DNA of 23,245 nt from Candidatus Poribacteria bacterium (GTDB lineage: Bacteria > Abyssobacteria > SURF-5), in contig JACRIR010000159.1 in NCBI GenBank assembly GCA_016215705.1, positions 1 to 23,245 on the forward strand, read 5' to 3'. The notes under the pieces were generated by a model. The model had not been told where the DNA came from. It worked only from the letters and a program-made list of their open reading frames with translations, and did no database searches. Below are positions 5,081-18,131 of this stretch, piece by piece. A program made the translations under genes and the position numbers. Numbering within the stretch: position 1 is the first letter of the stretch; every line of letters begins with the position of its first letter.

Positions 5081-5139
5081 CTAACCGTCACCTTTGAACC
5101 GTGAACCGTGAAACCTAATGTGTGAACTGTGAACTGTAG
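5081..5139 (+). repeat. Heptad array, class A (AACCGTG/AACTGTG)
   Basis: Degenerate tandem units of seven bases, such as TGAACCG repeated and later TGAACTG repeated, fill most of the argH-maoC gap. On the + strand, the sense of the downstream gene, the units read AACYGTG. Stop codons (TGA) occur in every frame because seven is coprime to three. The array ends about 10 nt before the AGAGGAGA ribosome-binding site of the next gene. Confidence 0.75.
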
Positions 5140-5163
5140 ATTTTCTTAGAGGAGAAACAGACA

Positions 5164-5625
5164 ATGGCTAGGACAGTTATCAAGGGGTTGGACAATTTGA
5201 AGGCTCTGAAAGGGAAGGAACTCGGCGTAAGCGAGTGGCATACGGTCACCCAGGACGAAATCAACAAATTCGCCGAGGCCACACACGATCACCAATGGAT
5301 TCACGTCGACCTTGAACGGTGCAAGAAGGAGTCGCCCTGGGGACAGACTATTGCGCACGGCTACTACACTCTCTCGCTTGCGCCCTATTTGCTTGGCCAG
5401 ATCATGTCGGTTGAAGGCGTGCAGATGGGCGTCAACTACGGCATCAACAAACTCCGCTTCCCGACCGCCGTCAAGGTCGGCAAAAGGGTTCGTGCTCGCG
5501 CCGAGCTTGCCGACGTAGAAGACGTCGCCAACGGAGTACAGGGCACCATCCGGGTCACCTTCGAGATTGATGGCGAACAGAAACCGGCTTGCGTCGCCGA
5601 AGTGGTCTATCGCTATTTTGGATAA
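5164..5625 (+). CDS. MaoC-like (R)-specific enoyl-CoA hydratase
   Basis: This 153-residue single-hotdog-fold protein of the MaoC dehydratase family has the hydratase-2 motif FAEATHDHQWIHVD (36-49). Asp42 and His47 match the catalytic Asp/His pair that hydrates trans-2-enoyl-CoA, and GQTIAHGYYTLSL follows as usual. Proteins of this size act as homodimers on short- to medium-chain enoyl-CoAs, in beta-oxidation or in PHA and lipid supply. The ATG at 5164 has a clear AGAGGAGA site. Neighbours do not define a pathway: argH lies upstream and a diiron protein downstream. The exact acyl substrate cannot be read from sequence. Confidence 0.85.
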   Translation: MARTVIKGLDNLKALKGKELGVSEWHTVTQDEINKFAEATHDHQWIHVDLERCKKESPWGQTIAHGYYTLSLAPYLLGQIMSVEGVQMGVNYGINKLRFPTAVKVGKRVRARAELADVEDVANGVQGTIRVTFEIDGEQKPACVAEVVYRYFG

Positions 5626-5705
5626 GGATTCCTGCCGCAAAGACGCAAGAATCGCAAGGAAAGAAGTGAAGAGATGCGGAATAAGACTGATTTCAATTCA
5701 AGACA

Positions 5706-5832
5706 GGAAGTCCGAATAATAAAGAGATCGGTCGCTCGCAGGATTCACCTCGTTCGTGATTAACTCTTGAGTAGCGGCCATACCGGGCTCGTGCCATTAT
5801 CAATAGCAATAGCAACGGATAGTCGGACTTCC
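5706..5832. repeat. Spaced 10-bp inverted repeat in the maoC-rubrerythrin gap
   Basis: GGAAGTCCGA at 5706-5715 is the exact reverse complement of TCGGACTTCC at 5823-5832, enclosing about 107 bp. The gap also begins with a CGCAA-rich stretch (about 5636-5660). The pairing could be a folded leader or a relic of a small inserted element. Nothing coding was found between 5626 and 5863. Confidence 0.4.
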
Positions 5833-5863
5833 GGTAGGACTTCAAGAAGGAGGAACATACGGA

Positions 5864-6322
5864 ATGGCAAATAGCAACTTCACGCCGCGCCAGATACTCA
5901 ATCGCGCGATCGGCAAAGAGAATGAAGCAAAAATGATGTATGAGATATACTCCGAAAAGGTCGAGGACCCGCGCAGCAAGAAGCTACTTAAGGAGCTTGC
6001 ACAGGAGGAGCTTGGGCACAAACGTGCGCTTGAGAGAATCGACCCCGACCATCCCGGCGCGTTCAAGTGCCCCACAATCTCGAGCACTGAGTTCAGCGAT
6101 TTCTCGAGCAGGCCGGAAATTTCGAAAGAGTCCACGATGCAGGAAGTCCTCCGTTATGCAATCGCCGAGGAACAGGACGCATTCAATTACTATACTTCGC
6201 TGACTGACTATGCCTCGGACAAGAAGCTGCATGACGTGCTCTGTAAATTGGCCGCCGAAGAGAAGGCGCACAAGCAGAAACTGGAACGCATGTACGACGA
6301 TATGTTCCAGCCGGAGAACTGA
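5864..6322 (+). CDS. Ferritin-like (rubrerythrin-type) diiron protein
   Basis: This 152-residue, mostly helical protein has two E...ExxH half-sites. In the first, Glu19 is followed by EELGHK (Glu49, His52). In the second, AEEQDAFNYY (around 102) is followed by EEKAHK (Glu133, His136). This is the diiron pattern of the rubrerythrin/ferritin-like superfamily. It lacks the C-terminal rubredoxin domain of classical rubrerythrin, so electrons for peroxide reduction would come from a separate donor; iron storage or sensing are alternatives. The ATG at 5864 has a strong AAGAAGGAGGAA site. A glutaredoxin downstream is compatible with an oxidative-stress grouping, but a repeat element separates the two genes. 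Confidence 0.85.
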   Translation: MANSNFTPRQILNRAIGKENEAKMMYEIYSEKVEDPRSKKLLKELAQEELGHKRALERIDPDHPGAFKCPTISSTEFSDFSSRPEISKESTMQEVLRYAIAEEQDAFNYYTSLTDYASDKKLHDVLCKLAAEEKAHKQKLERMYDDMFQPEN

Positions 6323-6354
6323 AGCAGCGTCCATCCGCATTGCTAACTGTCAAT

Positions 6355-6520
6355 CTCTTGAATTTGTGTCGTGATTTCTCGCGATGCCTTGCATGGCAAT
6401 CACACGGGCGCAATGAATTGCGCCCCTACAGGCATAAATCAAGAAACGCTGTAGGGACGCGATTCATCGCGCCCAGTGTGCGTTGTTTGGTTGCGGCTAT
6501 GCCGCGCTGTGGTTCGCTTT
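6355..6520. repeat. REP/BIME-like intergenic repeat, copy 1
   Basis: The core at 6401-6480 contains two near-perfect 20-nt palindromes in inverted order (6406-6425 and 6455-6474). Each is flanked on the inner side by the tetranucleotide GTAG (minus strand at 6426-6429, plus strand at 6451-6454), and the pair is enclosed by CACAC/GTGTG. GTAG plus an imperfect palindrome is the hallmark of REP sequences mobilised by RAYT transposases, and two inverted units form a BIME. The outer flanks, such as TCTTGAATTTGTG on the left and GTTGTTTGGTTGCGG on the right, recur inverted at 14981-15205, so the repeated unit is larger than the palindromes. Confidence 0.7.
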
Positions 6521-6533
6521 GTTCTTTTGGTTC

Positions 6534-6555
6534 AATCCAAAATCCAAAATCTAAG
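6534..6555 (+). repeat. Heptad array, class B (AATCCAA)
   Basis: Three consecutive units AATCCAA, AATCCAA and AATCTAA lie just upstream of the GGGAGGG ribosome-binding site of the glutaredoxin gene, on that gene's sense strand. Confidence 0.75.
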
Positions 6556-6576
6556 ATAACTTGGGAGGGATACTCA

Positions 6577-6816
6577 ATGCTCGAACTCTATCAAAAGGAA
6601 GGCTGCCCCTTCTGCCAGAAAGTCCGCCGGAAACTGACCGAACTGGACCTCGATTATATCTGCCGCAATGTGCGTGACGGCGGCAGCAAGAAGGAAGCGA
6701 TGCTGGAAAAGCTCGGCGGCCAAGTGCAGGTACCGTTCCTGATTGACACGATCAAGGGTGTCAGTATGTACGAGTCCGATGACATAAACGCGTATCTCGA
6801 AAAGAACTATTCATAG
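6577..6816 (+). CDS. Small glutaredoxin
   Basis: This 79-residue thioredoxin-fold protein has the redox motif CPFC at residues 10-13 and the cis-proline QVPFLID at about 51-57, followed by a C-terminal helix. It is close to the minimal glutaredoxin length. It is expected to reduce disulfides or glutathione mixed disulfides in the cytoplasm. The ATG at 6577 has a clear GGGAGGG site and begins the conserved fold. The same frame is open upstream to 6340, but that part runs through repeat DNA and is rejected. The gene lies between two REP-like repeats and just after a heptad array. The CPFC dipeptide does not tell which electron donor is used. Confidence 0.88.
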   Translation: MLELYQKEGCPFCQKVRRKLTELDLDYICRNVRDGGSKKEAMLEKLGGQVQVPFLIDTIKGVSMYESDDINAYLEKNYS

Positions 6817-6921
6817 CCGAATCTGACTCACTGCGAAAAATTGCAGGCCATGCGCGCGAAGAGCGCCAGCAAGACGGCCTACCCACGACACAGCCGGGAA
6901 GAACAGGCATTGAATCGCATA

Positions 6922-6944
6922 TGGGCGAACCTTGTGTTCGCCCA
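6922..6944. repeat. REP-like hairpin, diverged third copy
   Basis: TGGGCGAAC pairs perfectly with GTTCGCCCA across a five-base loop (CTTGT). The following AATTGTTTGGTGGC resembles GTTGTTTGGTTGCGG, which flanks the palindromes in copies 1 and 2, linking this site to the same family. It lies downstream of the glutaredoxin gene and could also act as a weak terminator, although no T-run follows. Confidence 0.55.
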
Positions 6945-6972
6945 AATTGTTTGGTGGCAAAGAGAGCCATAA

Positions 6973-7000
6973 TTGACAAGCATTCAGTTTGTGATAATAT
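6973..7000 (+). promoter_or_regulatory. Sigma-70-like promoter before the GlpA-like gene
   Basis: A perfect -35 TTGACA (6973-6978) is followed after 14 to 16 bases by GATAAT/TAATAT within 6993-7000. A -10 at 6995-7000 would start transcription near 7007, the predicted ATG, giving an almost leaderless message. No Shine-Dalgarno sequence is visible before 7007. The -10 spacing is slightly short. Confidence 0.45.
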
Positions 7001-7006
7001 GAGCGC

Positions 7007-8383
7007 ATGACCGGAATGAGTCAGAAGGTCTATGATGTGGCCGTTATCGGCGGAGGCGTAGTCGGCTGCGCCGTGCTGAGGGCGTTCACGCTGGCAGGTC
7101 TCAAGTGCGTGTTGCTTGAGCGGGGCGCTGACATTTTGAGCGGCGCCAGCAAGGGGAACAGCGCGATCCTCCACACCGGATTCGACGCCCCGCCGGGCAG
7201 CCTCGAGCATAAATGCGTCCAAGAAGGCTGCAAAGAATACCTGGAAATCCACGAACGCCTAAATCTCCCCCTTGTGCGAAGCTCAGCTCTGGTGGTAGCC
7301 TGGACGGAAGAGCAATTTCGGAGTCTGCCCGACATTGTTGAGAAGGCTCACAAAAATGGCGTCGCAGACGTTACTCAGATAGCTCTTGAAGACCTGTACG
7401 GCAGGGAGACAAACCTATCGGCCGGCGCCAAGGGAGCGGTGCTCGTCCCTGGTGAAAGCTATATCGATCCGTGGTCCGCGCCTCTGGCGTATGCTCATCA
7501 GGCGCTGGCGAACGGAGCAGACATATTTGCTCTCAGCGAAGTGCAGCGTGGAGAGTTTGACGCTGGCCATTGGAAGCTCATGACACCCGGCGGTCTTTTC
7601 AAAGCCGGCGTCGTCATAAATTGCGCGGGAAACTTTGGGGACATAGTGGAGGCCATTAACCGTCCCAGTGCTTTCCGCATAACTCCACGAAAGGGTCAGT
7701 TCCTGGTATACGACAAGCCTGCCGCTGACCTTCTTCAGTGTATCATACTTCCAGTTCCTACAAAACGAACCAAGGGAGTGGTTGTCTTCCGAACTGTCTT
7801 CGGAAAGGTTGTCGTTGGACCTACAGCTGAAGATCAGGAAGACCGCGAACTCGCCGACGTCACGGAAAAGATGCTGCGCGATCTGAAGGCCAAAGGCGAA
7901 TCTATTATTCCGGGTCTGGCATCACATGAGATAATCGCTACGTATGCCGGCCTGCGACCTGCCACTCAATTCGACGACTATCAAATCGATGCGGACCGTG
8001 ATCGCCATTGGATCACGGTGGCCGGCATTCGGTCCACGGGACTTACAGCTTCTTTGGGAATTGCCAAACATGTGCTTGCGCTGTACGAAGAGAAACTTGG
8101 CAGGCTCAACCCCATTGACGAACCAGTCTGGACACCTGTGCCGAATCTGGCCGAACATCGGCCGAGGGCGTACCAGAAACCCGATGCGGGAGAACTCGTC
8201 TGCCTCTGCGAAATGGTCACCCGCAAGGAAATGGAAGACGCACTCTCCTCGTTGTTGCCGCCGGGTGACATGGGCGGTCTGAAGAGGAGAACCCGATGCA
8301 CGATGGGGCGGTGTCAGGGGTATTACTGTGGGCATAAAGTGGCGCAGTTGGCTCAGGGACGCCTCAAGGAGCCGTCACAATGA
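7007..8383 (+). CDS. GlpA-like FAD dehydrogenase with C-terminal [2Fe-2S] (BFD-like) domain
   Basis: This 458-residue protein of the DAO/glycerol-3-phosphate dehydrogenase type has the N-terminal FAD motif VIGGGVVG (13-20), a DAO core with GASKGNSAILHTGF (46-59), and a C-terminal BFD-like cysteine set (C399, C401, C431, C436; C441 close by) in CLCEMVT and CTMGRCQGYYC. This arrangement is known in anaerobic-type GlpA proteins (COG0579), which oxidise sn-glycerol 3-phosphate. L-2-hydroxyacid oxidation is the main alternative. The next gene overlaps by 4 nt (ATGA), and a glycerol-kinase-like gene follows, so a polyol-phosphate substrate is favoured. A second ATG at 7016 is possible. The promoter at 6973-7000 would give little or no leader. 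Confidence 0.85.
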   Translation: MTGMSQKVYDVAVIGGGVVGCAVLRAFTLAGLKCVLLERGADILSGASKGNSAILHTGFDAPPGSLEHKCVQEGCKEYLEIHERLNLPLVRSSALVVAWTEEQFRSLPDIVEKAHKNGVADVTQIALEDLYGRETNLSAGAKGAVLVPGESYIDPWSAPLAYAHQALANGADIFALSEVQRGEFDAGHWKLMTPGGLFKAGVVINCAGNFGDIVEAINRPSAFRITPRKGQFLVYDKPAADLLQCIILPVPTKRTKGVVVFRTVFGKVVVGPTAEDQEDRELADVTEKMLRDLKAKGESIIPGLASHEIIATYAGLRPATQFDDYQIDADRDRHWITVAGIRSTGLTASLGIAKHVLALYEEKLGRLNPIDEPVWTPVPNLAEHRPRAYQKPDAGELVCLCEMVTRKEMEDALSSLLPPGDMGGLKRRTRCTMGRCQGYYCGHKVAQLAQGRLKEPSQ

Positions 8384-9615
8384 ATGGGCCGCGCAAGGAC
8401 TCGTATGACGTGATCGTGGTCGGAGGCGGAGTCTCCGGTTTGAGCGCGGCTGCGGCCCTCGAGCGCCTGGGGGTAGAAAGCGTCCTTGTGCTCGAACGAG
8501 AACAGGAATGCGGAGGCGCGCCCCGGCATATCGAGAGTCCCAACTTCGGACTCCGAGAGTTCCATCGACTAATGAGAGGGCCTGACTACGCGGCCGGAAT
8601 GCGGGCGCGGGTGCGAAGCGCGGAGGTGGTCACGGAGTTCAGTGTCACCAGGTTGCTGCCCGGCGGAAAGTTGGAGGGAGCAGGCACACGGGGCATGCGC
8701 GCGCTCGCGGCAAAACGAATTATTCTTGCCTCCGGCACGCGCGAGGCTAGCCGCCACAACCGTCTTGTCTCCGGCGCAAGACCATTCGGAGTTGTCACAT
8801 ATGGCGCGCTCCAACGATACTTATCTTTTGCCGGATTGAAGCCCTTCCGGCGCGCGGTGGTTGTAGGCACGGAATGGGTATCGCTCTCCACTCTTCAAAC
8901 GATGCGCAAGCACGGTCTGCGCCCGATCTGCATGATCGAAGAGCAGTCCCGGACCATCGCGCCGGAAATGATAATGCGAGTCATCGAGAGATTCTTCAAT
9001 GCGCCTGTTTATCGTGGCGCTCATCTGGAAAGGATTCTCGGCAACACCAAAGTTGAAGGAATCGAAATCGAACAAGGCGGACGGCTTCATGTTATCGAAT
9101 GCGACGGCGTTGTGTTCACGGGCAAGTTCATTCCCGAGGCACACCTTGTTCGGCTTGGCCAGATGGATTTCGATCAGGGCTCCAGCGGGCCAATCACGGA
9201 CCAGTGCCATCGACTCAGCGACCCGGCTTATTTTGCCTGCGGCAACGTGCTGCGGCCGGTCGAGGCCTCGTGGGTCTGCTCAAGGGAGGGAGAGCGTGTG
9301 GCTCGGCTTGTGCAAAGGAGTCTGGCGAGGGCTTTGCCAGCTTCGGGCGGATTTGTTCCCGTTCGCCTAAGCGATCCCATTCGTTTTGTTTGGCCACAGC
9401 GACTGGTTTTTCCGTACGAGCAGGAACAGTCCGGACTGTGCTTGAAAGTCTCATTTCGGCGGCCTGTGAGAGGAATGCTTCGCTTCGCAGCCGACGGCCA
9501 GGAAATATGGGCGAAGAACATCAGCGCCATGCCGGAGCAACTTGTCAAGGTGTTTCCCAAGAGAATGCCGTCGGCGTCAGTTGCTGATTTCGAATTGCGT
9601 TTTCATGAAGAGTAA
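8380..9615 (+). CDS. FAD/NAD(P)-dependent oxidoreductase, GlpB/HcnB-like partner
   Basis: This 411-residue flavoprotein has an N-terminal FAD motif VVGGGVSG (13-20), an ERE acidic end of the second strand, a second Rossmann-like segment AVVVGTEWVSLS (about 165-176) and a late GNV/FAD segment (FACGNVLRP). Its ATG overlaps the stop of the GlpA-like gene (ATGA), so the two products are probably made in equal amounts and form a complex that passes electrons from the dehydrogenase. Comparable operons pair a COG0579 dehydrogenase with a COG0446 oxidoreductase and a small DUF1667 protein. No DUF1667 gene is here. Instead this protein ends in an approximately 80-residue tail that looks beta-rich and has only one cysteine. 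Its electron acceptor is not evident. Confidence 0.78.
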   Translation: MNGPRKDSYDVIVVGGGVSGLSAAAALERLGVESVLVLEREQECGGAPRHIESPNFGLREFHRLMRGPDYAAGMRARVRSAEVVTEFSVTRLLPGGKLEGAGTRGMRALAAKRIILASGTREASRHNRLVSGARPFGVVTYGALQRYLSFAGLKPFRRAVVVGTEWVSLSTLQTMRKHGLRPICMIEEQSRTIAPEMIMRVIERFFNAPVYRGAHLERILGNTKVEGIEIEQGGRLHVIECDGVVFTGKFIPEAHLVRLGQMDFDQGSSGPITDQCHRLSDPAYFACGNVLRPVEASWVCSREGERVARLVQRSLARALPASGGFVPVRLSDPIRFVWPQRLVFPYEQEQSGLCLKVSFRRPVRGMLRFAADGQEIWAKNISAMPEQLVKVFPKRMPSASVADFELRFHEE

Positions 9616-9708
9616 ACCGAAGAGCGGGTTTTGCCACAGAGATCATCGGGAACACTTGGCACAGCAAACCCGAAAGGGCAATTCATAGTTACAAAGGCTG
9701 ATCAGGCC

Positions 9709-9734
9709 GTTGACTGTGGACTGTAGACTGTAGG
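9709..9734 (+). repeat. Heptad array, class A (GACTGTG/GACTGTA)
   Basis: Three successive heptads, GACTGTG, GACTGTA and GACTGTA, precede the kinase start codon by about 10 nt, on its sense strand. TAG occurs in the repeat cycle, so all frames are closed just before the ATG. The rest of the 9616-9744 gap shows no ribosome-binding site and no gene. Confidence 0.7.
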
Positions 9735-9744
9735 CGCTTCTCAC

Positions 9745-11226
9745 ATGAATCCAAAATCTGAAATCCAAAATTCAAAATCGGCCGGCCAGGTCGTTCTGGC
9801 CGTCGATCAGGGGACGACAAGAACAAAAAGCTTCATCTTGAATTCAGAAAGGGGCTTCAAGCGTGTAGCTTCCCTCGCGCATAAACAAATATATCCGAGA
9901 CCCGGCTGGGTAGAGCATGATCCGGCGGAACTGCTCGGCAATGTGATGAAGTGTCTCGCAAAAGCGCGAGGCGTTTCTGCCATGGGATTGGCAAATCAGG
10001 GAGAGACGGTGGTCGCGTGGGATTCAGGAACCGGCAGACCAATCTGCAATGCCATTGTTTGGCAAGATCAGCGAACTTATGATCTGATCAGACAACTCAA
10101 GGCCGACGGCGCAGAAGAGTTGACTCTGAGTCGCGCCGGGCTGCCGTTGGACCCATATTTCAGCGCCCCCAAACTGAAATGGATAATAGACAATATCACC
10201 GAAGCCCGAAGCCTGCTCAGGAAGAACCGGCTGCGAGTGGGCACGTCCGATTCCTTTTTCCTGGATCGCCTTGCCGGAGTATATGCGACGGACGTCACGA
10301 CAGCTTCGAGGACCAGCCTCATGAATCTGCGTTCGCTGGAGTGGGATGCTCAGCTCTGCGGTTTATTCGGAATTCCTCTCGAGATTCTGCCGGAGATTCG
10401 GCCCACAACCGGGGAGTTCGGCTCGGTAAGGACTGCCGGCGGCATGGCGCCTGTGACGGCAAGCGCAGTCGATCAGCAGGCGGCGCTGTTCGGCCACCAG
10501 TGTTTTGAACCCGGGCAGGTCAAGGTGACGTTTGGGACCGGCGCGTTCGCTTTGGCCAATGCGGGAAGCACGATTCACCGGAATCCGGACTCACGAATGA
10601 CAGCAACAGTGGCCTGGAAGCTAGGGGACAAAAGCCCAGTTTATGCCGTGGAGGGCGGCGTTTATAGCGCAGCATCGGCTGTTGACTGGATCAAGCAAGC
10701 CGGACTCATTTCAAGACTTAACGAACTCAATCGACTCGGAGGCGCGCCGGCCGCAGCCAGCAATACCTTCTTCGTCCCCGCGTTGTCGGGTCTGGCGTGC
10801 CCTCATTGGGACCGCACGGCCTCCGGGCTCTGGATTGGCTTGGGCCTTGGAACGACTAAGGAGGACCTCATCAAATCGGTTTTGGAGGGTGTGGCCTTTC
10901 GGACGTTTGAAGTTCTCTCATCTCTGTGGGATTTGGTTGGAGCATCCGAAATCGTCTCGATTGACGGAGGACTGACTAATAGCTCGTACTTTTGCCAGTT
11001 CCTCGCTAATGTGCTTGACAAGAACCTGAGAGTCCCGGGTACGGCGGACATGACTGCTGTTGGCACAGCGTATTTGGCCATGATCGGAGCCACAACAAGT
11101 GGCCGTCAAATCGAATTCCCTGACATTCACCTGCCGGAGACTGTCATCAGTCCGACACGCGATTTCAGTGTGCACTACGGTAAATTCCGGGATGCGGTCT
11201 CCCGCTCAAAGGGCTGGCGAACCTGA
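9745..11226 (+). CDS. glpK: Glycerol-kinase-like FGGY carbohydrate kinase
   Basis: This 493-residue FGGY kinase phosphorylates a polyol with ATP. Family marks include AVDQGTTRTKS (19-29, phosphate loop), GWVEHDP (54-60), AIVWQDQRT (103-111), LDPYFSAPKLKW (135-146), ASRTSLMN (187-194), VDQQAALFG (242-250) and GTGAFAL (264-270). It aligns by eye with GlpK and keeps Glu87, Trp106, Tyr138 and Asp243 of the glycerol pocket. The residue matching E. coli Arg83 is Gly86 (NQGET rather than NQRET), so another polyol is possible. The neighbouring GlpA-like dehydrogenase would oxidise the product. The N-terminal 12 residues are encoded by a class B heptad array, and no start lies between them and the fold. 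No clear Shine-Dalgarno sequence is seen. Confidence 0.85.
   Translation: MNPKSEIQNSKSAGQVVLAVDQGTTRTKSFILNSERGFKRVASLAHKQIYPRPGWVEHDPAELLGNVMKCLAKARGVSAMGLANQGETVVAWDSGTGRPICNAIVWQDQRTYDLIRQLKADGAEELTLSRAGLPLDPYFSAPKLKWIIDNITEARSLLRKNRLRVGTSDSFFLDRLAGVYATDVTTASRTSLMNLRSLEWDAQLCGLFGIPLEILPEIRPTTGEFGSVRTAGGMAPVTASAVDQQAALFGHQCFEPGQVKVTFGTGAFALANAGSTIHRNPDSRMTATVAWKLGDKSPVYAVEGGVYSAASAVDWIKQAGLISRLNELNRLGGAPAAASNTFFVPALSGLACPHWDRTASGLWIGLGLGTTKEDLIKSVLEGVAFRTFEVLSSLWDLVGASEIVSIDGGLTNSSYFCQFLANVLDKNLRVPGTADMTAVGTAYLAMIGATTSGRQIEFPDIHLPETVISPTRDFSVHYGKFRDAVSRSKGWRT
9748..9779 (+). repeat. Heptad array, class B, translated as the kinase N-terminus
   Basis: Four to five degenerate units (AATCCAA, AATCTGA, AATCCAA, AATTCAA, AATC) begin directly after the ATG and encode NPKSEIQNSKS. 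The array has no stop in any frame. The same peptide style appears at the start of the ECF ATPase. Confidence 0.85.
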
Positions 11227-11257
11227 TTCCAAAGGTAGCTGCTCGCTTCCTGCGCCG

Positions 11258-11294
11258 CCATGACTTTGGCATTGTTGTGAAGATCCGGTCATGG
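11258..11294. terminator. Possible bidirectional terminator between convergent genes
   Basis: CCATGAC (11258-11264) and GTCATGG (11288-11294) form a 7-bp inverted repeat in the 73-nt gap between the convergent kinase and ecfT genes. No T-run is obvious on either side, so this is only a candidate. Confidence 0.2.
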
Positions 11295-11299
11295 TCTCG

Positions 11300-12046
11300 C
11301 TATGATGCGATGTAGAGACTCACGCCAAGTAGCACTGCGGTCAACGCAAGAGCTATCCAATCGCGTAGTCGCATCTTGAGTTGGATGTAGAAGGTGCGGG
11401 ATTTGCCGGCGGCGAAGCCGCGAGCTTCGAGCGCCAGTGCCATGAGGTTGGCGTTGCGGATAGAGACAAGGAAGATGGGAGTCATGAGGGGGACATAACT
11501 TTTCATTCGTTTCCAGAGCCCACCTGTGTCGAGCTCAAGGCCACGGCTTTTTTGGGCTTCGACGACGGTGGAGCCGGTCTGCGCAAAAGTGGGGACGAGC
11601 CTGAGAGCAGTCGAGAAGGCAAAACACATCACGTATGGCGCGCCCATTTTCACCAGGCCGATGGTAATTTCCTCGTTTCGCGTCGTTGCCAGAAAGACCA
11701 TTCCCGCAAGAAGGATCGCATCGATCTTGATGGCGGTCAGCACGCCAAATACGAGCGATTCCCGCCGAATGAACATCCACAGAATCTCGCCGCCGCGTGG
11801 GATGATTCCCCAGACAAGAATGGTGAAGACCGTGATTATCACGAGGAAGTTGCGCATGCGCGCAATGACCGGCCACGCGCGGCCAAGGCTGGCGTAGATA
11901 ATGACAAGGGTGACGGCGGCGAACGCATGCGGCAGAGTTGAGGGTGCGAGGGCGATGACAAATGTGGCCATTAGTATGAGAATCTTGGTGCGCGGGTCGA
12001 GGCGATGAATAATGGTATTCTTGGATTCGTATAAGTATGGGTTCAT
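11300..12046 (-). CDS. ecfT: ECF transporter transmembrane coupling protein (EcfT)
   Basis: This 248-residue membrane protein of the EcfT/CbiQ family links the S component to the ATPases. Hydrophobic spans lie at about 22-55, 65-82, 98-120, 137-152 and 228-247. The two coupling-helix motifs appear as AQKSRGLE (164-171) and LEARGF (206-211), corresponding to the conserved Ala-Arg-Gly signatures that insert into the ATPase grooves. The ATG (12044-12046) lies within a class A heptad array, 38 nt after the ATPase stop, and has no Shine-Dalgarno sequence, so translation may depend on coupling with the upstream gene. The sequence does not tell whether it serves one dedicated S component or several. 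Confidence 0.9.
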   Translation of the reverse strand: MNPYLYESKNTIIHRLDPRTKILILMATFVIALAPSTLPHAFAAVTLVIIYASLGRAWPVIARMRNFLVIITVFTILVWGIIPRGGEILWMFIRRESLVFGVLTAIKIDAILLAGMVFLATTRNEEITIGLVKMGAPYVMCFAFSTALRLVPTFAQTGSTVVEAQKSRGLELDTGGLWKRMKSYVPLMTPIFLVSIRNANLMALALEARGFAAGKSRTFYIQLKMRLRDWIALALTAVLLGVSLYIAS

Positions 12047-12107
12047 GGTTTATGGTTCAGAGTTTAGGGTTTAGAGTTCATGGTTCATGGTTTATGGTTT
12101 ATGGTTT
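12042..12107 (-). repeat. Heptad array, class A (AACCATA/AACCATG)
   Basis: About nine tandem heptads on the minus strand (AACCATA, AACCATG, AACTCTA, AACCCTA, AACTCTG and similar) fill the ATPase-ecfT junction. The array supplies the TGA stop of the ATPase (12085-12087), which sits in an ATGA overlap, and the ATG of ecfT (12044-12046). It is the clearest array in the window. Confidence 0.85.
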
Positions 12108-13815
12108 TCTGTGTACATTGGAGGAATTCCTCGACGGACAGGATTGTTGTTCCTAATTCGTTGCTGAAGCGGACGATTTGAGGAGCAATTATGTCGGCCT
12201 TTGAGAGCATGTCTTCGCGTGCGAAGATTCCGCGCGTCGGCCCGTCAGCGACGATTCTGCCCTCGCTCATAAGGATCGTCCGGTGCGCGTACCCGGCGGC
12301 GATCCAGATGCAATGGGTTATCATGATGATGGTATGGCCGCTCTCGTTCAAGCGCTTCACAAGGGACATCATACTTCTTAGTTCGCCGTAGTCCAGGCCG
12401 GTAGTCGGTTCATCGAGCACAATCGCGCCGGGCCTAGTGGCGAGAACAGACGCAACGGCCACTTTCTGGCGCAGTCCCTTGGTGAGTGTAAACGGGTCTT
12501 CGGAACGCCGCTCCCACAGGCCGACGGTCTCGAGCGCATCGCGCGCCTGCGCTTGTGCCCGCTTCTCCCCTACTCCGAGCATCTTCGGGCCAAACAAGAC
12601 CTCCGCTTGAATCGTCTCCTCGAATATCTGGTGATCCGGATTCTGAAACACGTAACCGATGCGCCGGCCGAGTTCGGTGGCCGACATTCGAGCTGTGCTT
12701 GTTCCTTCGACGCGAACCTCTCCCCGTGTGGGCTTAAGGAGGCCGTTCAGATGTTTTGCGAGCGTGGTCTTCCCGCTTCCGTTCTGTCCCAGGATCGTCA
12801 CAAACTCTCCATCTCGAATCTGCAGACTGACTCCGCGAAGGGCCGACATATCCGGGCCGTACGAAAAGTGGGCGTCATCGACTTCTATCAATGGACGCCC
12901 GTAGCAGCGGGCTTTCTCTGCGTCGGACTCATCGAGCTTCTTGCGCGCATTCGGCAGCAATTGAAAGGAATTATTCTGCCATGCCTTCTTCGCCTCTTCA
13001 ATGCTCAGAGGAAGCTCATTCCCGCCCAGTTTCTCGAACAGATCGGTCAGTTGGAGAGGCATGATGCGGCATTCCTCAAGCCGACGGGTGTTTCGCAGTA
13101 TTTCGCTTGGAGGGCCGTCGGCGGCTATCCGGCCGTCATGCATGAGGACAACGCGGTCGGCCGAGAGCGCCTCTTCGGTTTCGTGTTCGATAACTATAAG
13201 GGTCTGTTTGCGTTGCTCGAGCAGTTGGCGCGTGAGGTTGAAGATTCGGCGCTTGTTCTTTGGGTCGAGGTCGGTCGTGGGCTCATCGAAACACAGGATC
13301 GGCGGCTCGAGCGACAGGACGGACGCAATTGCGAGCAGTTGTTTTTGCCCACCGGATAGCGTAGCGGGCTGTCTCCCCCTAAGGTTAGTCAGTCCCGTCA
13401 ACTCGAGCGCACGCCGAATCCTGTCTTTGATTTCGTCAATCGGGAGGCCGAGGTTCTCGGGGCCGAATGCGACCTCGAGCTCAACCTCGGTCGAAAACAG
13501 TTGTGATTCGAAATCCTGGAACACTAGCCCGATGTGCGAGAATAAGCTCCTCACGCCTTGCCGGCGCGTGTCCATACCGTTGATCCGGACGGCGCCATCG
13601 AGAGTTCCCTTTACCATGTGCGGAATGAGGCCATTAAGAGTGAAACAAAGCGTGGATTTGCCGGCCTCGTTCGGCCCCATTATGACGACAAGGTCCCCCT
13701 CACGAATCTTCAGGCTCACGCCGCGAAGGGCATTATCCGAAGCGGCGCGATAGCGGAAAATGAGGGAATCTATTTCTATGATTTCGGATTTTGGATTTTG
13801 GATTTCGGATTCCAA
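12085..13815 (-). CDS. Fused double ATPase of an ECF importer (EcfA-EcfA')
   Basis: This 576-residue protein has two ABC ATPase domains in tandem, where most ECF systems use two separate subunits. Domain 1 has Walker A GPNEAGKST (47-55), Q-loop Gln100, LSGGQ (153-157), Walker B CFDEPTTDLD (175-184) and His211. Domain 2 has Walker A GQNGSGKTT (343-351), Q-loop Gln391, the unusual signature LTKGLRQ (444-450), Walker B LDEPTTGLD (467-475) and His501. It powers vitamin or metal uptake with EcfT and the S component encoded on either side. The start is a TTG at 13815 after AAAAGG; the first residues (ESEIQNPKSE) come from a class B heptad array. No other start lies before the ATPase fold. Confidence 0.9.
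   Translation of the reverse strand: MESEIQNPKSEIIEIDSLIFRYRAASDNALRGVSLKIREGDLVVIMGPNEAGKSTLCFTLNGLIPHMVKGTLDGAVRINGMDTRRQGVRSLFSHIGLVFQDFESQLFSTEVELEVAFGPENLGLPIDEIKDRIRRALELTGLTNLRGRQPATLSGGQKQLLAIASVLSLEPPILCFDEPTTDLDPKNKRRIFNLTRQLLEQRKQTLIVIEHETEEALSADRVVLMHDGRIAADGPPSEILRNTRRLEECRIMPLQLTDLFEKLGGNELPLSIEEAKKAWQNNSFQLLPNARKKLDESDAEKARCYGRPLIEVDDAHFSYGPDMSALRGVSLQIRDGEFVTILGQNGSGKTTLAKHLNGLLKPTRGEVRVEGTSTARMSATELGRRIGYVFQNPDHQIFEETIQAEVLFGPKMLGVGEKRAQAQARDALETVGLWERRSEDPFTLTKGLRQKVAVASVLATRPGAIVLDEPTTGLDYGELRSMMSLVKRLNESGHTIIMITHCIWIAAGYAHRTILMSEGRIVADGPTRGIFAREDMLSKADIIAPQIVRFSNELGTTILSVEEFLQCTQKTINHKP
13780..13814 (-). repeat. Heptad array, class B, translated as the ECF ATPase N-terminus
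   Basis: On the minus strand the units read AATCCGA, AATCCAA, AATCCAA, AATCCGA and AATCATA right after the TTG start. They encode a peptide almost matching the kinase N-terminus. The remaining gap to the S-component gene (13816-13933) shows no gene. Confidence 0.85.
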
Positions 13816-13933
13816 CGAAAACCTTTTTTGCTAAAACAATGAGCGCCGAGAAAAAAGAATTTGGCTCACGAATCATGCGAACATCTTTGAATAGTACGAG
13901 TAAGGACTTCCTCCTTGACCACGGATTACGTAT

Positions 13934-14704
13934 TCACGCCAGCAGACATCCGATTATCAAGATGATAATGAATGGTGTTACGCCGAGTACAACGGACGGC
14001 GTGGTTGCGCCGGTGCCGATCTTGAAGAGCATGGTTTGGGCGAGCCCCGCTGAGAGCGCGACGCCTGCGACGAATCCTCCGAGAACTCCGAGCCAGATGA
14101 GTGCGGCGCCTATTCTTGGGCTGAGGCCGCGAGGCCGATCCTTCTCGTCCATGATCGCAAACCAGACGAGGTCCCATCGGTTCAAGCGCTTGTACAGAAG
14201 CCCCATCAGCATGATTCCAAGCACGACGCAGGCGAGAGAGTTGTTGACAGCGATTATCGGCCCAATAGCTGCAAACGGGAGTATTCTGACGAGTTCCAGC
14301 CACCACGCAATCAGCTCCGCGCATGCGAGGCTACTGAGGATTGCAGCAAGGATGAAGTTAAGCGCTTTCTTCTTTGAGTCGATCGCGAGGTCTTCCGGCG
14401 AACTCGCAATGCCCATGCTTCCCCAGACTTTGTAGCCGACGAGACCATAGAAGAAATTGCCGAAGAATCCGCCGACAGTCCCAATGCCGAACGTGCCGAA
14501 GAAATCACCGATGACGTTTCCGAAAGCTGCTCCCCATGCGCCAGCCGGACTGAACAGCAGGCCAAACACAACGGGGATGACCGCGCCGGGCCGGAATTCG
14601 GTGAAGCCCGGAACAATCGGGATACCTTTCAGCGGAATCACCAGAGCGGCGTAAAAGGCAGCGGTTACAGCCGCAAGAACGACCATCTTGGTGTATTTCC
14701 ACAT
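13934..14704 (-). CDS. ECF transporter substrate-binding (S) component
   Basis: This polytopic membrane protein has 256 residues from the ATG at 14704, which has a good GAAGGAAG site. A TTG start at 14722 would add six residues but would overlap that site. Hydrophobic spans fall at about 7-29, 38-56, 57-74, 80-94, 112-160, 205-226 and 236-256. The segment FRPGAVIPVVFGLLFSPAG followed by AFGNVIGDFFG (about 61-70) is characteristic of QueT-like and related S components. It is longer than the common 170-200 residues, mainly in the C-terminal half. Gene order S, AA, T on one strand gives a complete importer. The substrate is unknown: no riboswitch was recognised in the leader and no biosynthetic neighbour points to a vitamin. 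Confidence 0.8.
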   Translation of the reverse strand: MWKYTKMVVLAAVTAAFYAALVIPLKGIPIVPGFTEFRPGAVIPVVFGLLFSPAGAWGAAFGNVIGDFFGTFGIGTVGGFFGNFFYGLVGYKVWGSMGIASSPEDLAIDSKKKALNFILAAILSSLACAELIAWWLELVRILPFAAIGPIIAVNNSLACVVLGIMLMGLLYKRLNRWDLVWFAIMDEKDRPRGLSPRIGAALIWLGVLGGFVAGVALSAGLAQTMLFKIGTGATTPSVVLGVTPFIIILIIGCLLA

Positions 14705-14753
14705 TGTGAAAACTTCCTTCAAGAACTCACCCGCCTTTCACGAGCCACTATGC

Positions 14754-14826
14754 GCGGTCTACGGTTTGCGGTCCACAGTTCACGGTCCACAGTTCACGGT
14801 CTACGGTTTGCGGTTTGCGGCTGTCG
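14754..14826 (-). repeat. Heptad array, class A (AACCGTA/AACTGTG/AACCGCA)
   Basis: About ten heptads lie upstream of the S-component gene. On the minus strand they read AACCGCA, AACCGTA, GACCGTG, AACTGTG and similar, in the sense of that gene. They would form part of its 5' leader if transcription starts at the palindrome next to them. Confidence 0.8.
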
Positions 14827-15247: not shown

Positions 15248-16840
15248 TCATTTCGGTCGGAAGCGGAGCACTCCAAGTTTGTCGTTTGAGTTCACGAATT
15301 CAAGGTGGCGCTCGAATTCGTCGAAGAGAGGGTCGTTCATCGAGCCGAGCGGAGACGTCAGCAGCCACACGCTCCTGCCGGGCTCAGACACACCGGGTCG
15401 AGGCCCAGCAAGTCGACCCTCGTCGGCAGCGGACTTGATCACGTCGGCAGCGTCACTCATCAACTCCCGGGGAGTGAGCCTGTAATCGATCCATCCGGGA
15501 TGCGAGCGCATGGAACCCGGATAAGGCATCACCTGAAATCTGGCGTTCTCGCGCCTCATATAATATTCGACCGGACACAGGCGAAGTCCCGTCACAACGA
15601 CAAGATCGCCTTCGCTACCCGATTCGGCAATATATCGGACTGCCTCTCTATCGAACGCGGGTGTGGGAAGGGAGTAATACTTGTAGAGAGAGTAGGCGGC
15701 CAGCAGGCTGATGGCGGGCAGGCCGATCCATGCGAGTCGCGCAAGTTTCACGAGACCGAGTCCAATGAGCAGGGCATAAAACGGGTATGCCATGAAATCG
15801 TTGCGGCCGACGAGATAGATGGGTTTCACAAATGAGAGTCCATAAGGGAGCGCCAATGGCACGAAGAGACTCAGGAGAAGATAGAGCTTTGCGGAGCGCA
15901 CTTCGGCCGGAGCGTGCGCGAGCGAGCGGTCTCGATACGATGAGACTGCGATCATGCCAACAAGCGCGAAGACTACGTATGACGCAAATCGTAGCGGCGA
16001 CACGTGAAAGAATCGGAGATAAGACGGATAATTCGCGCCGGCGCTGAAACACTCCAATGTTTTTGGGATGGCAAGCGCAGGGGGAGTCGCTTGCCAATAC
16101 TCCTTCATCCACAGGCCGGCCTGTCCAGCCTGTTTCGGGACAATCGGAACCCATGGCAGGAAGAGAATCACTATGACGGCCTGGTAGGCCGCAAGTTTGA
16201 AGAATAGGTGACGGCGCTCCCTATTGAGCAACAGAAAGAGGTTGCCGGCCGGCAAAGCAAACCATCCGAAAATGTGTGTATAGACGAGAAAAGTTGCACT
16301 CAGAACATATGCCCACCAATAGCGTTTCTTTTCGTGCTTGATCGCGAGCCACAGAAAGCCGGATGAGAGCGCCGACAGAAACGCCAGCATCATGTACATT
16401 CGCGCCTCTTGCGAATAATACACGTGAATGGGAGCGACCGCTGCTACAAACATGCCAGCGAGCGCGACGCATTCGTTGATAAGACTCTTGCCGAGCCAGT
16501 AAACGACCGCCAAAGAGGCCATTCCGAACAACACTGAGAGCAGTCGCACGCTCAATTCCGACTCCCCGAACAGACTCTTCCACATGAACATGAGCATGAA
16601 ATACAGCGGCGGGTGGCCGTCATCCTTGAGTTTCTCGACCATTTCTGCGGGTGAATCGCCGGCTATGAAAATTGAATGAGTCTCATCGAGCCAGAGCTCG
16701 TTCGAGGTTAACATGAAGAGCCTGAGCGCCAGGCCGATTACCACGATGGCGAAGAAAAATGGGGACACGGCCCGCATTCTCGAATCAACCATGTGACTAC
16801 TTTGTTGTATTTTACTCAAGAACAGAGGCTGGTTCGCCAT
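15248..16840 (-). CDS. Membrane glycosyltransferase, GT39/ArnT-PMT type
   Basis: This 530-residue protein has about ten or more hydrophobic spans and a soluble C-terminal region of around 120 residues. The first span (about 27-46) is followed by NELWLDETHS (47-56), the acidic loop motif of the GT-C fold holding the catalytic Asp. GHPPLYFML (75-83) and YYSQEARMYM (about 145-154) are also typical of the PMT_2 group. Such enzymes take a sugar from a polyprenyl-phosphate donor and add it to lipid A, a glycan or a protein on the outer face of the inner membrane. The ATG at 16840 lacks a Shine-Dalgarno sequence; Met17 or Met22 are possible starts just before the first span. The gene stands alone, so acceptor and sugar are unknown. 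Confidence 0.85.
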   Translation of the reverse strand: MANQPLFLSKIQQSSHMVDSRMRAVSPFFFAIVVIGLALRLFMLTSNELWLDETHSIFIAGDSPAEMVEKLKDDGHPPLYFMLMFMWKSLFGESELSVRLLSVLFGMASLAVVYWLGKSLINECVALAGMFVAAVAPIHVYYSQEARMYMMLAFLSALSSGFLWLAIKHEKKRYWWAYVLSATFLVYTHIFGWFALPAGNLFLLLNRERRHLFFKLAAYQAVIVILFLPWVPIVPKQAGQAGLWMKEYWQATPPALAIPKTLECFSAGANYPSYLRFFHVSPLRFASYVVFALVGMIAVSSYRDRSLAHAPAEVRSAKLYLLLSLFVPLALPYGLSFVKPIYLVGRNDFMAYPFYALLIGLGLVKLARLAWIGLPAISLLAAYSLYKYYSLPTPAFDREAVRYIAESGSEGDLVVVTGLRLCPVEYYMRRENARFQVMPYPGSMRSHPGWIDYRLTPRELMSDAADVIKSAADEGRLAGPRPGVSEPGRSVWLLTSPLGSMNDPLFDEFERHLEFVNSNDKLGVLRFRPK

Positions 16841-16925
16841 TTGGCGGCATTATAGTGAAGTCGAGCCGTCTTTTCAACTCGAAGAGATCATCCGAGCTCT
16901 GAGAGACCCGGCATGGAGATTCTTC

Positions 16926-16954
16926 TTGACTAATTCTCCGTACTCGATAATAAT
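16926..16954 (+). promoter_or_regulatory. Sigma-70-like promoter for the Fe-S protein gene
   Basis: TTGACT (16926-16931) is separated by 17 bases from AATAAT (16949-16954); each box matches consensus at five of six positions. Transcription would begin near 16961, giving a leader of about 94 nt before the ATG at 17055. The site lies in the divergent region shared with the glycosyltransferase gene. Confidence 0.55.
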
Positions 16955-17054
16955 TTAAGTGTTGTGGTCGGCACAAGTGTTGCGCCGGCGCCCGTTGGAA
17001 TGACCCTGAACCGTTGCTGCAAAGCGGCAAGACTCACGTAAGGAGGAATTACTC

Positions 17055-18131
17055 ATGACTGACGTTTATAAGCGACTGGCCAAGAAGCTGGACGAACTGC
17101 CAAACGGCTATCCCGCCACCGAGAGCGGTGTGGAGCTGAGGATTCTCGAGCACATCTTCACGCCGGAGGAAGCCGAAATGACGATGCAGATGCGGCCCAT
17201 ACCCGAGACCGTCGAGGCAGTGGCCGAGCGCCTCGGGAAGCCAGTTCCAGAAATGCAGAGAATATTGGACAATCTGGCCGAGAAAGGGGAGATTGGCTCG
17301 TTCAAGATGTTCGGTCAGCAAATGTACATGCTGTTCCCGTTCGTCATAGGGATTTATGAGTTCCAGTTGAAGCGAATGGACAAGAAGTTGTCGGAGATGT
17401 TCGAGGAGTACGCGCCGCTTCTTCTCAAGACCTTTGGCGCGTTCGAGCCTGCCGTAGCGCGCGTTGTGCCCATAAGCACCCAGATAAATCAGGACCTGCA
17501 TATTCACCGGCACGAGGACATACGCAAGCTGCTGGAGGAAGCGAAATCGTTCGATCTCATGGACTGCATCTGCAAGAAAGAGCGCGCTCTCGAGGGACAC
17601 CCCTGCAAGCACACGCTCCAAATTTGCCTTGCCTTCTCGCCCGAAGAAAACGCTTTTGAGAAGTTCCCGAGAGGAAAAGTGATCACGAAGGAGGAAGCGA
17701 TCAAGGTTATGGAGAAGGCCGAGGAAGAGGGCCTCGTCCACTGTACGTATAACGTGGAGGATGGGCAAGTATTCATGTGCAACTGCTGTTCCTGCTGCTG
17801 TGGCATCCTTCGCGGAGTGAAAGAATACAAGTCTCCTTATATCCTGGCCAAGAGCTATTTCACCGCCGAAATAGATCAAGACACCTGCGCCGCATGCGGA
17901 ATCTGCAAAGATGAGCGCTGCCCGATGGATGCGATTGTCGAGGACAACGGCAGCTACAAGGTCTTAGCGGAACGCTGTATCGGCTGCGGCGCCTGCACGC
18001 CGACTTGCCCGACGGAATCGATGAAGCTCGTGCGCAAACCGGAGTCCGAGCATGTTTCGCCGCCGGCGAACCTGATGGACTGGAACATTCAACGGGCCGC
18101 CAAACGCGGAATCGAGATCAAGATAGAGTAA
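17055..18131 (+). CDS. Winged-helix and multi-cluster Fe-S protein (2x[4Fe-4S] ferredoxin domain)
   Basis: This 358-residue cytosolic protein has three parts. The N-terminal region (about 45-100) looks like a winged helix (TVEAVAERLGKPVPEMQRILDNL, then GEIGSF). A middle cysteine domain holds C171, C173, C184, C191 and the dense CNCCSCCCG block (242-250). The C-terminal ferredoxin domain has two [4Fe-4S] motifs, C278/C281/C284/C289 and C308/C311/C314/C318. The middle cysteines probably bind a further cluster or metal. The start has a strong AAGGAGGAA site and an upstream promoter. The family is common in anaerobes but its role is not established; an electron carrier, or a redox-sensing regulator using the winged helix, are both possible. 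No redox partner enzyme is adjacent. Confidence 0.8.
   Translation: MTDVYKRLAKKLDELPNGYPATESGVELRILEHIFTPEEAEMTMQMRPIPETVEAVAERLGKPVPEMQRILDNLAEKGEIGSFKMFGQQMYMLFPFVIGIYEFQLKRMDKKLSEMFEEYAPLLLKTFGAFEPAVARVVPISTQINQDLHIHRHEDIRKLLEEAKSFDLMDCICKKERALEGHPCKHTLQICLAFSPEENAFEKFPRGKVITKEEAIKVMEKAEEEGLVHCTYNVEDGQVFMCNCCSCCCGILRGVKEYKSPYILAKSYFTAEIDQDTCAACGICKDERCPMDAIVEDNGSYKVLAERCIGCGACTPTCPTESMKLVRKPESEHVSPPANLMDWNIQRAAKRGIEIKIE

Follow-up and report, generated by a model that had tools for sequence, protein, structure and literature searches.

Heptad arrays in the window

The window analysed here, 23,245 nt of Candidatus Poribacteria bacterium (assembly GCA_016215705.1, contig JACRIR010000159.1, positions 1 to 23,245), carries seven degenerate tandem arrays with a period of 7 nt among ordinary genes. 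The neighbours are an acetylornithine-type aminotransferase and further arginine genes (assigned by sequence), together with genes for a MaoC-domain protein, a glutaredoxin-like protein, an FGGY kinase, CbiQ, a double ABC ATPase, QueT and a PMT_2 glycosyltransferase. The arrays had been pointed out in a first-pass annotation of the stretch and they are real, since lag-7 identity is 0.60-0.87 across all seven, and a periodicity scan returned six period-7 segments in the window versus a mean of 0.05 and a maximum of 1 in 100 Markov-2 resamples. The same scan returned no segment in the window at periods 5, 6, 8, 9, 10, 11 or 13. Taken on the coding strand of the downstream gene, all seven are of the AAC/GAC type (class A) or of the AATC type (class B), and, as annotated, none is placed at the convergent (11227-11299) or at the divergent (16841-17054) junction.

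Four arrays are located on the plus strand. The one at 5081..5139 is a broken class A array (GAACCGTG / TGTGAACTG) with a lag-7 identity of 0.60, which corrects the strict 7-nt period given in the annotation. Next come TTTTCTTAGAGGAG and the MaoC-domain gene, which starts at 5164; the gene-side module ATTTTCTTAGAGGAG (5140..5163, +), which contains the Shine-Dalgarno site, is of the type that comes after start-facing arrays of several classes. The class B array AATCCAAAATCCAAAATCTAA (6534..6555, +) lies just 5' of GGGAGGG and of the glutaredoxin-like gene at 6577. A class A array of GACTGTR units (9709..9734, +) is positioned 5' of the FGGY kinase gene (9745-11226), whose N-terminus MNPKSEIQNSKS is itself encoded by a class B array (9748..9779, +); the Pfam domain of the kinase starts at residue 17, after the array-encoded N-terminus. 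The other three are on the minus strand. A class A array (14754..14826, -) made of AACCGTR/AACTGTG units lies ~30-50 nt 5' of the QueT-family gene (start 14704 or 14722), and a class B array (13780..13814, -) codes for the N-terminus ESEIQNPKSEI (MESEIQNPKSEI) of the ABC ATPase (12085-13815). At 12042..12107 (-) a class A array bridges the ABC ATPase gene (stop at 12085) and the CbiQ-family gene (start 12046), coding for the last residues of the former and the start codon of the latter. Three of the seven are not strict leaders, which corrects the annotation: the two translated as N-termini do not lie 5' of their genes, and the one at 12042-12107 takes in the end of one gene and the start codon of the next.

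Polarity of the arrays relative to gene edges

The genome comprises 5.47 Mb in 270 contigs, and 140 stretches of it (2.05 Mb, 37% of the genome; L numbers below) were read. Period-7 segments were sought without an assumed unit, at a score cut-off of 15 or more. The genome-wide scan suggested by the annotation confirmed a real excess, with 97 segments at period 7 versus 0-22 at each of the periods 5, 6, 8, 9, 10, 11 and 13. In all, 2.07 Mb of the genome contain 283 heptad arrays, whose units fall into at least four classes: A (RACYNTR), B (AATCYRA), C (CCTTTCG, also CCTTGCT) and D (GACYTTS), with a further class E. The classes were defined from the same data in which they were counted, the sense of classes C and D having been fixed before the count by their same-strand co-occurrence with class A (L029, L042). 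Strict class A matches amount to 268 in the whole genome, the reversed-pattern control giving 0. Most of the 283 arrays (213) are located in gaps between genes, 34 being inside genes and 36 at contig edges.

The gap arrays are oriented with respect to the edges of genes. In 175 of the 213 the 3' end of the C-rich strand is nearer to the edge that it faces (p = 3e-22), a polar fraction of 0.82, when random placement in the same gaps gave 0.50 and at most 0.62. The polarity is found in class A (51/66), class B (34/41) and class C (83/95), and it extends to periodic phrases of 8 nt (26/29) and 9 nt (9/9). The edge can be of either kind: the commonest distance is 0-10 nt past the stop codon for stop-facing arrays and 15-30 nt ahead of the start codon, immediately 5' of the Shine-Dalgarno site, for start-facing ones. 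When arrays on opposite strands share one gap, the order (-,+) is seen 15 times and (+,-) once, which geometry alone explains in part if arrays form the ends of inserts. The gaps might have had a strand skew in general, but this was discarded as the cause, since gaps free of arrays are not skewed to a similar degree except in the Shine-Dalgarno bin. Phrases of other lengths such as CTTTGCGN (8 nt) and ATTCGTGNC (9 nt) are present in gaps, for example at L062:3500-5600.

The annotation had taken the orientation of the arrays to be coherent with the downstream gene, and had itself offered random orientation or an equal density at convergent junctions as outcomes that would remove a functional role. 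Genome-wide, the coherence is lost, as co-directional gaps contain 97 start-facing versus 65 stop-facing arrays. Nor are convergent junctions depleted, the densities per kb of gap being 0.89 in convergent (26 arrays in 29 kb), 0.81 in co-directional and 0.41 in divergent gaps (25 arrays in 61 kb). Placement is therefore non-random, as had been proposed, but relative to both kinds of gene edge and not as a marker of the next gene start only. The orientation ratio and the equal convergent density argue against explaining the arrays in general as leaders or RNA-binding tracts. What also persists is the start-facing excess that class A alone has in co-directional gaps (38 versus 11, p = 1e-4). In the same gaps class C has no start bias (35:36). 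The start orientation of seven out of seven arrays in the window is compatible with class-specific rates, with a probability of about 0.1 by our own arithmetic. Overall, the earlier interpretation is partly supported.

Anatomy of the arrays

In whole gaps and aligned flanks the order along the C-rich strand is fixed: often a palindromic repeat, then a pyrimidine-rich linker, the array and the gene edge. The palindromic repeats that flank the arrays are of the types GCGGGAATGAC, GAGCGAAGCGAAGCAATCTC, GTGTCCCCGAATTA and AGGGGGATTT, and the linker is CTTCTTTGGGATTC, after which an array of any class can come. At starts, TTTCTTAGGAG is the usual Shine-Dalgarno module between array and gene, and after stop codons an inverted copy of the same stack is found (L044:2826-3071). 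That TTTCTTAGGAG might be a general start context was considered and rejected, as it is rare where arrays or palindromes are absent. The arrays are in register, and similar copies differ in copy number (L031, L058).

Dispersed repeats are also present in the window. Positions 1-200 hold a palindromic repeat with CCCCCCTTTGCAAAGGGGGGAAGGGGGGATTT, of a type that occurs next to heptad arrays at L009, L026, L093 and L094. Behind the 6534..6555 array, the gap contains a long dispersed intergenic repeat with GGGCGCAATGAATTGCGCCC (~6334-6524); copies with 81-90% identity to it (query 1735-1919) are located in at least 5 other contigs of the genome, and it is present in the relative G002 (see below).

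Inside genes of this genome, class B arrays are in the sense orientation (4/4) and those of classes C and D in the antisense orientation (5/5, one row being a merged ACD array). The encoded peptides, NPKSEIR for class B sense and KGERRKA and GPKFKVQ for classes C and D antisense, are the hydrophilic reading each time, which indicates that peptide tolerance, and not regulation, sets the orientation there.

Comparison with relatives and distribution in other phyla

Two genomes of the same family, G001 and G002, both from other genera, were compared. The lineage is apparently very sparsely sampled: all other compared genomes share only the domain, and the best named ArgH match is a metagenome-assembled genome (MAG) of Candidatus Hydrogenedentota (57%). 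Class A matches number 0 in G001 and 7 in G002, and at four of five comparable junctions the relatives lack arrays. The gap between the rubrerythrin and glutaredoxin genes, of 254 nt here, measures 26 nt in G002 and 141 nt in G001 and is array-free in both. The argH-maoC gap of G002, orthologous to that with the 5081..5139 array, has 120 nt and no array, and in G001 the two transporter genes (ABC ATPase and CbiQ family) share a 4-nt overlap that carries no array. There are no heptads in the gap 5' of the QueT-like gene in G002 (302 nt, with palindromes) or in G001 (457 nt). The gap 5' of the ABC ATPase gene contains a class B array here, a class A array in G002 and none in G001. The arrays are thus lineage-specific. 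In G001, the sequence at L143:2370-2480 (CTGAGA ... ACCCTTTGAACCTGATCTGG), 5' of a thiS-like gene, resembles a TPP riboswitch by its appearance.

Arrays of the same classes are found in distant phyla, with reversed-pattern controls near zero. Class B is present in 14 of the 74 genomes from the phylum represented by G061, a sediment MAG that groups with the Margulisiibacteriota MAG G049, and in 49 of 395 genomes of the phylum of the Nitrospirae MAG G046; class A is present in 68 of 395 genomes of the phylum of the Desulfobacterales MAG G055. Among the matches listed for Desulfobacterota, opposite-strand neighbours within 600 nt, counted by eye, were (-,+) in 12 cases and (+,-) in 0, and recurrent identical spacings (36 and 78 nt) indicate that some of these pairs are copies of one element.

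In the phylum of G061 most class B arrays lie within long open reading frames, in frame and in the sense orientation, at loops of core enzymes. Hosts of in-frame sense class B arrays in other genomes include IleRS, ValRS, CysRS, PurL, HisRS, GcvPB, GcvT, MetH and CoaX, and in CysRS the array insert coincides with gaps in the alignment to the closest solved structure (PDB 8qhp). Arrays of other phyla that initial gene calling had placed far from gene edges were discounted as such, their reading frames placing them inside genes. In IleRS (L264, L277, L280) and in CysRS (L285, L287) the in-frame heptad peptide occupies one and the same position in different genomes of one phylum, which would reflect either an insertion of long ago or a hot spot.

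Origin of the arrays

The arrays are probably edge modules, on the gene-proximal side, of dispersed repeats inserted in short intergenic gaps, and not regulators of the next gene. This reading is built on their polarity, their occurrence at starts and stops, their absence from most of the compared junctions of the relatives and the fixed order of their flanks. Repeat DNA would enter a gap in either orientation, which would leave the array immediately 5' of a Shine-Dalgarno site or immediately 3' of a stop codon, the remaining insert lying on its far side, and the arrays may later lengthen or shorten in 7-nt steps through slippage. The order of the modules would then derive from insertion rather than from stepwise growth.

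Several points weigh against insertion. Neither an enzyme that would mobilise the arrays nor a precise target-site duplication was identified, and the modules combine freely, no single full-length element having been drawn; with regard to the constant termini and target-site duplication of a transposable element, what is found is a fixed order of modules in free combination. The comparison with relatives is one between genera of a single family. The gene calls were home-made, from a codon model, and one batch of stretches was partly selected for class A matches, which affects density and not orientation. In divergent gaps alone the polarity is 15/25, not significant, and the start-facing excess of class A is not predicted by neutral insertion in random orientation. 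Counts of REP transposases (Y1_Tnp) are 3, 3 and 1 in the array-rich, array-free and array-poor relatives and hence are not informative on the arrays.

The class A excess favours a different proposal, namely that class A arrays serve in the 5' leader as binding tracts for a ribosomal or an RNA-binding protein, after MacGregor's suggestion for TAACTGA, a similar AAC-type heptad that is mostly forward and directly before start codons in the Maribeggiatoa genome (PMC4679880). However, class A arrays are also found past stops and between convergent genes, where the opposite strand would be in the RNA, the orthologous junctions of G001 and G002 lack arrays with one exception, and class C shares the geometry with no preference for starts. 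Leader tracts are therefore unlikely; a start-linked role for class A is possible. Polymerase slippage in place, which would make the arrays ordinary intergenic microsatellites, is in agreement with their register and with the variation in copy number among similar copies, but it predicts no fixed strand relative to gene edges, no use of a few units hundreds of times and no shared flanks, and is quite unlikely as their origin. The same geometry has been reported for heptads of Xanthomonas and Nostoc (PMC4692102), so that the arrays might be G-quadruplex or i-motif elements near gene ends, as Rehm et al. discuss for GGGAATC and GGGGAYT. This is extremely improbable here: four GGG runs occur in only 2 of the 283 arrays, which means that quadruplexes are not needed for the geometry, and arrays of TTTTGGA, TTCATGG and CGAAAGG units keep the same polarity.

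Another mechanism would be the template-directed addition of heptads at the 3' DNA ends of breaks, in a way similar to telomere addition, the G-rich strand being extended outward before joining. It would fit the direction of the G-rich strand, which at starts and stops alike leads away from the gene (5' to 3'), the near-exclusive (-,+) order of the pairs, the arms of different class in 6 of the 15 (-,+) pairs, by which the two ends look independent, and the variation of the units, mostly by transitions. Nevertheless, the pair order is partly explained by geometry alone, the fixed-order palindromic repeats and linkers are unexplained, and no enzyme was found, which makes such addition very unlikely. 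The genome has two reverse transcriptase (RVT_1) matches, the relatives having none over the cut-off, and the match in the read DNA was rejected as a writer of arrays because it is part of a diversity-generating retroelement. In that retroelement (L126:13016-17900) the target gene ends in a C-type-lectin/FGE-like variable region, and the other parts are an avd-like small open reading frame, the reverse transcriptase gene (16684-17778) and, just 3', an AAC-rich template repeat. Improbable to a high degree is the wider proposal that several phyla possess an activity adding degenerate 7-nt (also 8-9-nt) repeats to 3' ends, outward from gene edges on either side of a break; if it were true, the telomere-like G-strand arrays would be the scars left between genes and, in some lineages, within them.

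Comparison with known systems

The STRR sequences of Cyanobacteria are short tandem heptanucleotide repeats located outside genes, with CCCCAGT-like units, from which the units described here differ. Text searches of a library of papers for the unit sequences or the encoded peptide found none mentioning either. Like REP/REPIN palindromic repeats and the in-gene Rickettsia palindromic elements, the arrays are dispersed in gaps and inserted in frame in core proteins; unlike them, they are direct repeats, not palindromic, and no mobilising transposase was linked to them. MacGregor (2015; PMC4679880) described TAACTGA direct repeats 5' of starts in marine Beggiatoaceae, Cyanobacteria and Bacteroidetes and suggested translational control. 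The present arrays share with them AAC-type heptads near start codons and a patchy distribution over distant phyla, but TAACTGA takes the place of the Shine-Dalgarno site and runs mostly in the forward direction, whereas the arrays of this genome leave the Shine-Dalgarno site intact and often face stops. The class A unit, RACYNTR, and the orientations (97:65 overall, 38:11 for class A) set the arrays apart from the TAACTGA family.

The closest geometry is that reported by Rehm et al. (2015; PMC4692102) for the GGGAATC heptads of Xanthomonas and the GGGGAYT heptads of Nostoc, discussed as G-quadruplexes, in which the G-rich strand is antisense within 50 bp 5' of open reading frames and sense within 50 bp after stops, with few repeats between divergent genes. 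Both sets have a period of 7, hundreds of copies, a mostly intergenic location and the same edge placement (here 175/213). They differ in that the units here are not quadruplex-forming (four GGG runs in 2/283), that several unit classes as well as 8-9-nt phrases share the rule, and that the arrays adjoin palindromic repeats. The handedness of heptads relative to gene edges was already reported in 2015 for two G-rich units as a matter of quadruplex biology; in the present genome alone it applies to at least three unrelated non-quadruplex units and to phrases of 8 and 9 nt, and the pair order recurs in Desulfobacterota. The question shifts accordingly from how the repeats fold to how they get placed, and the in-frame arrays in tRNA synthetases and other core enzymes of another phylum indicate that the process reaches coding DNA too.

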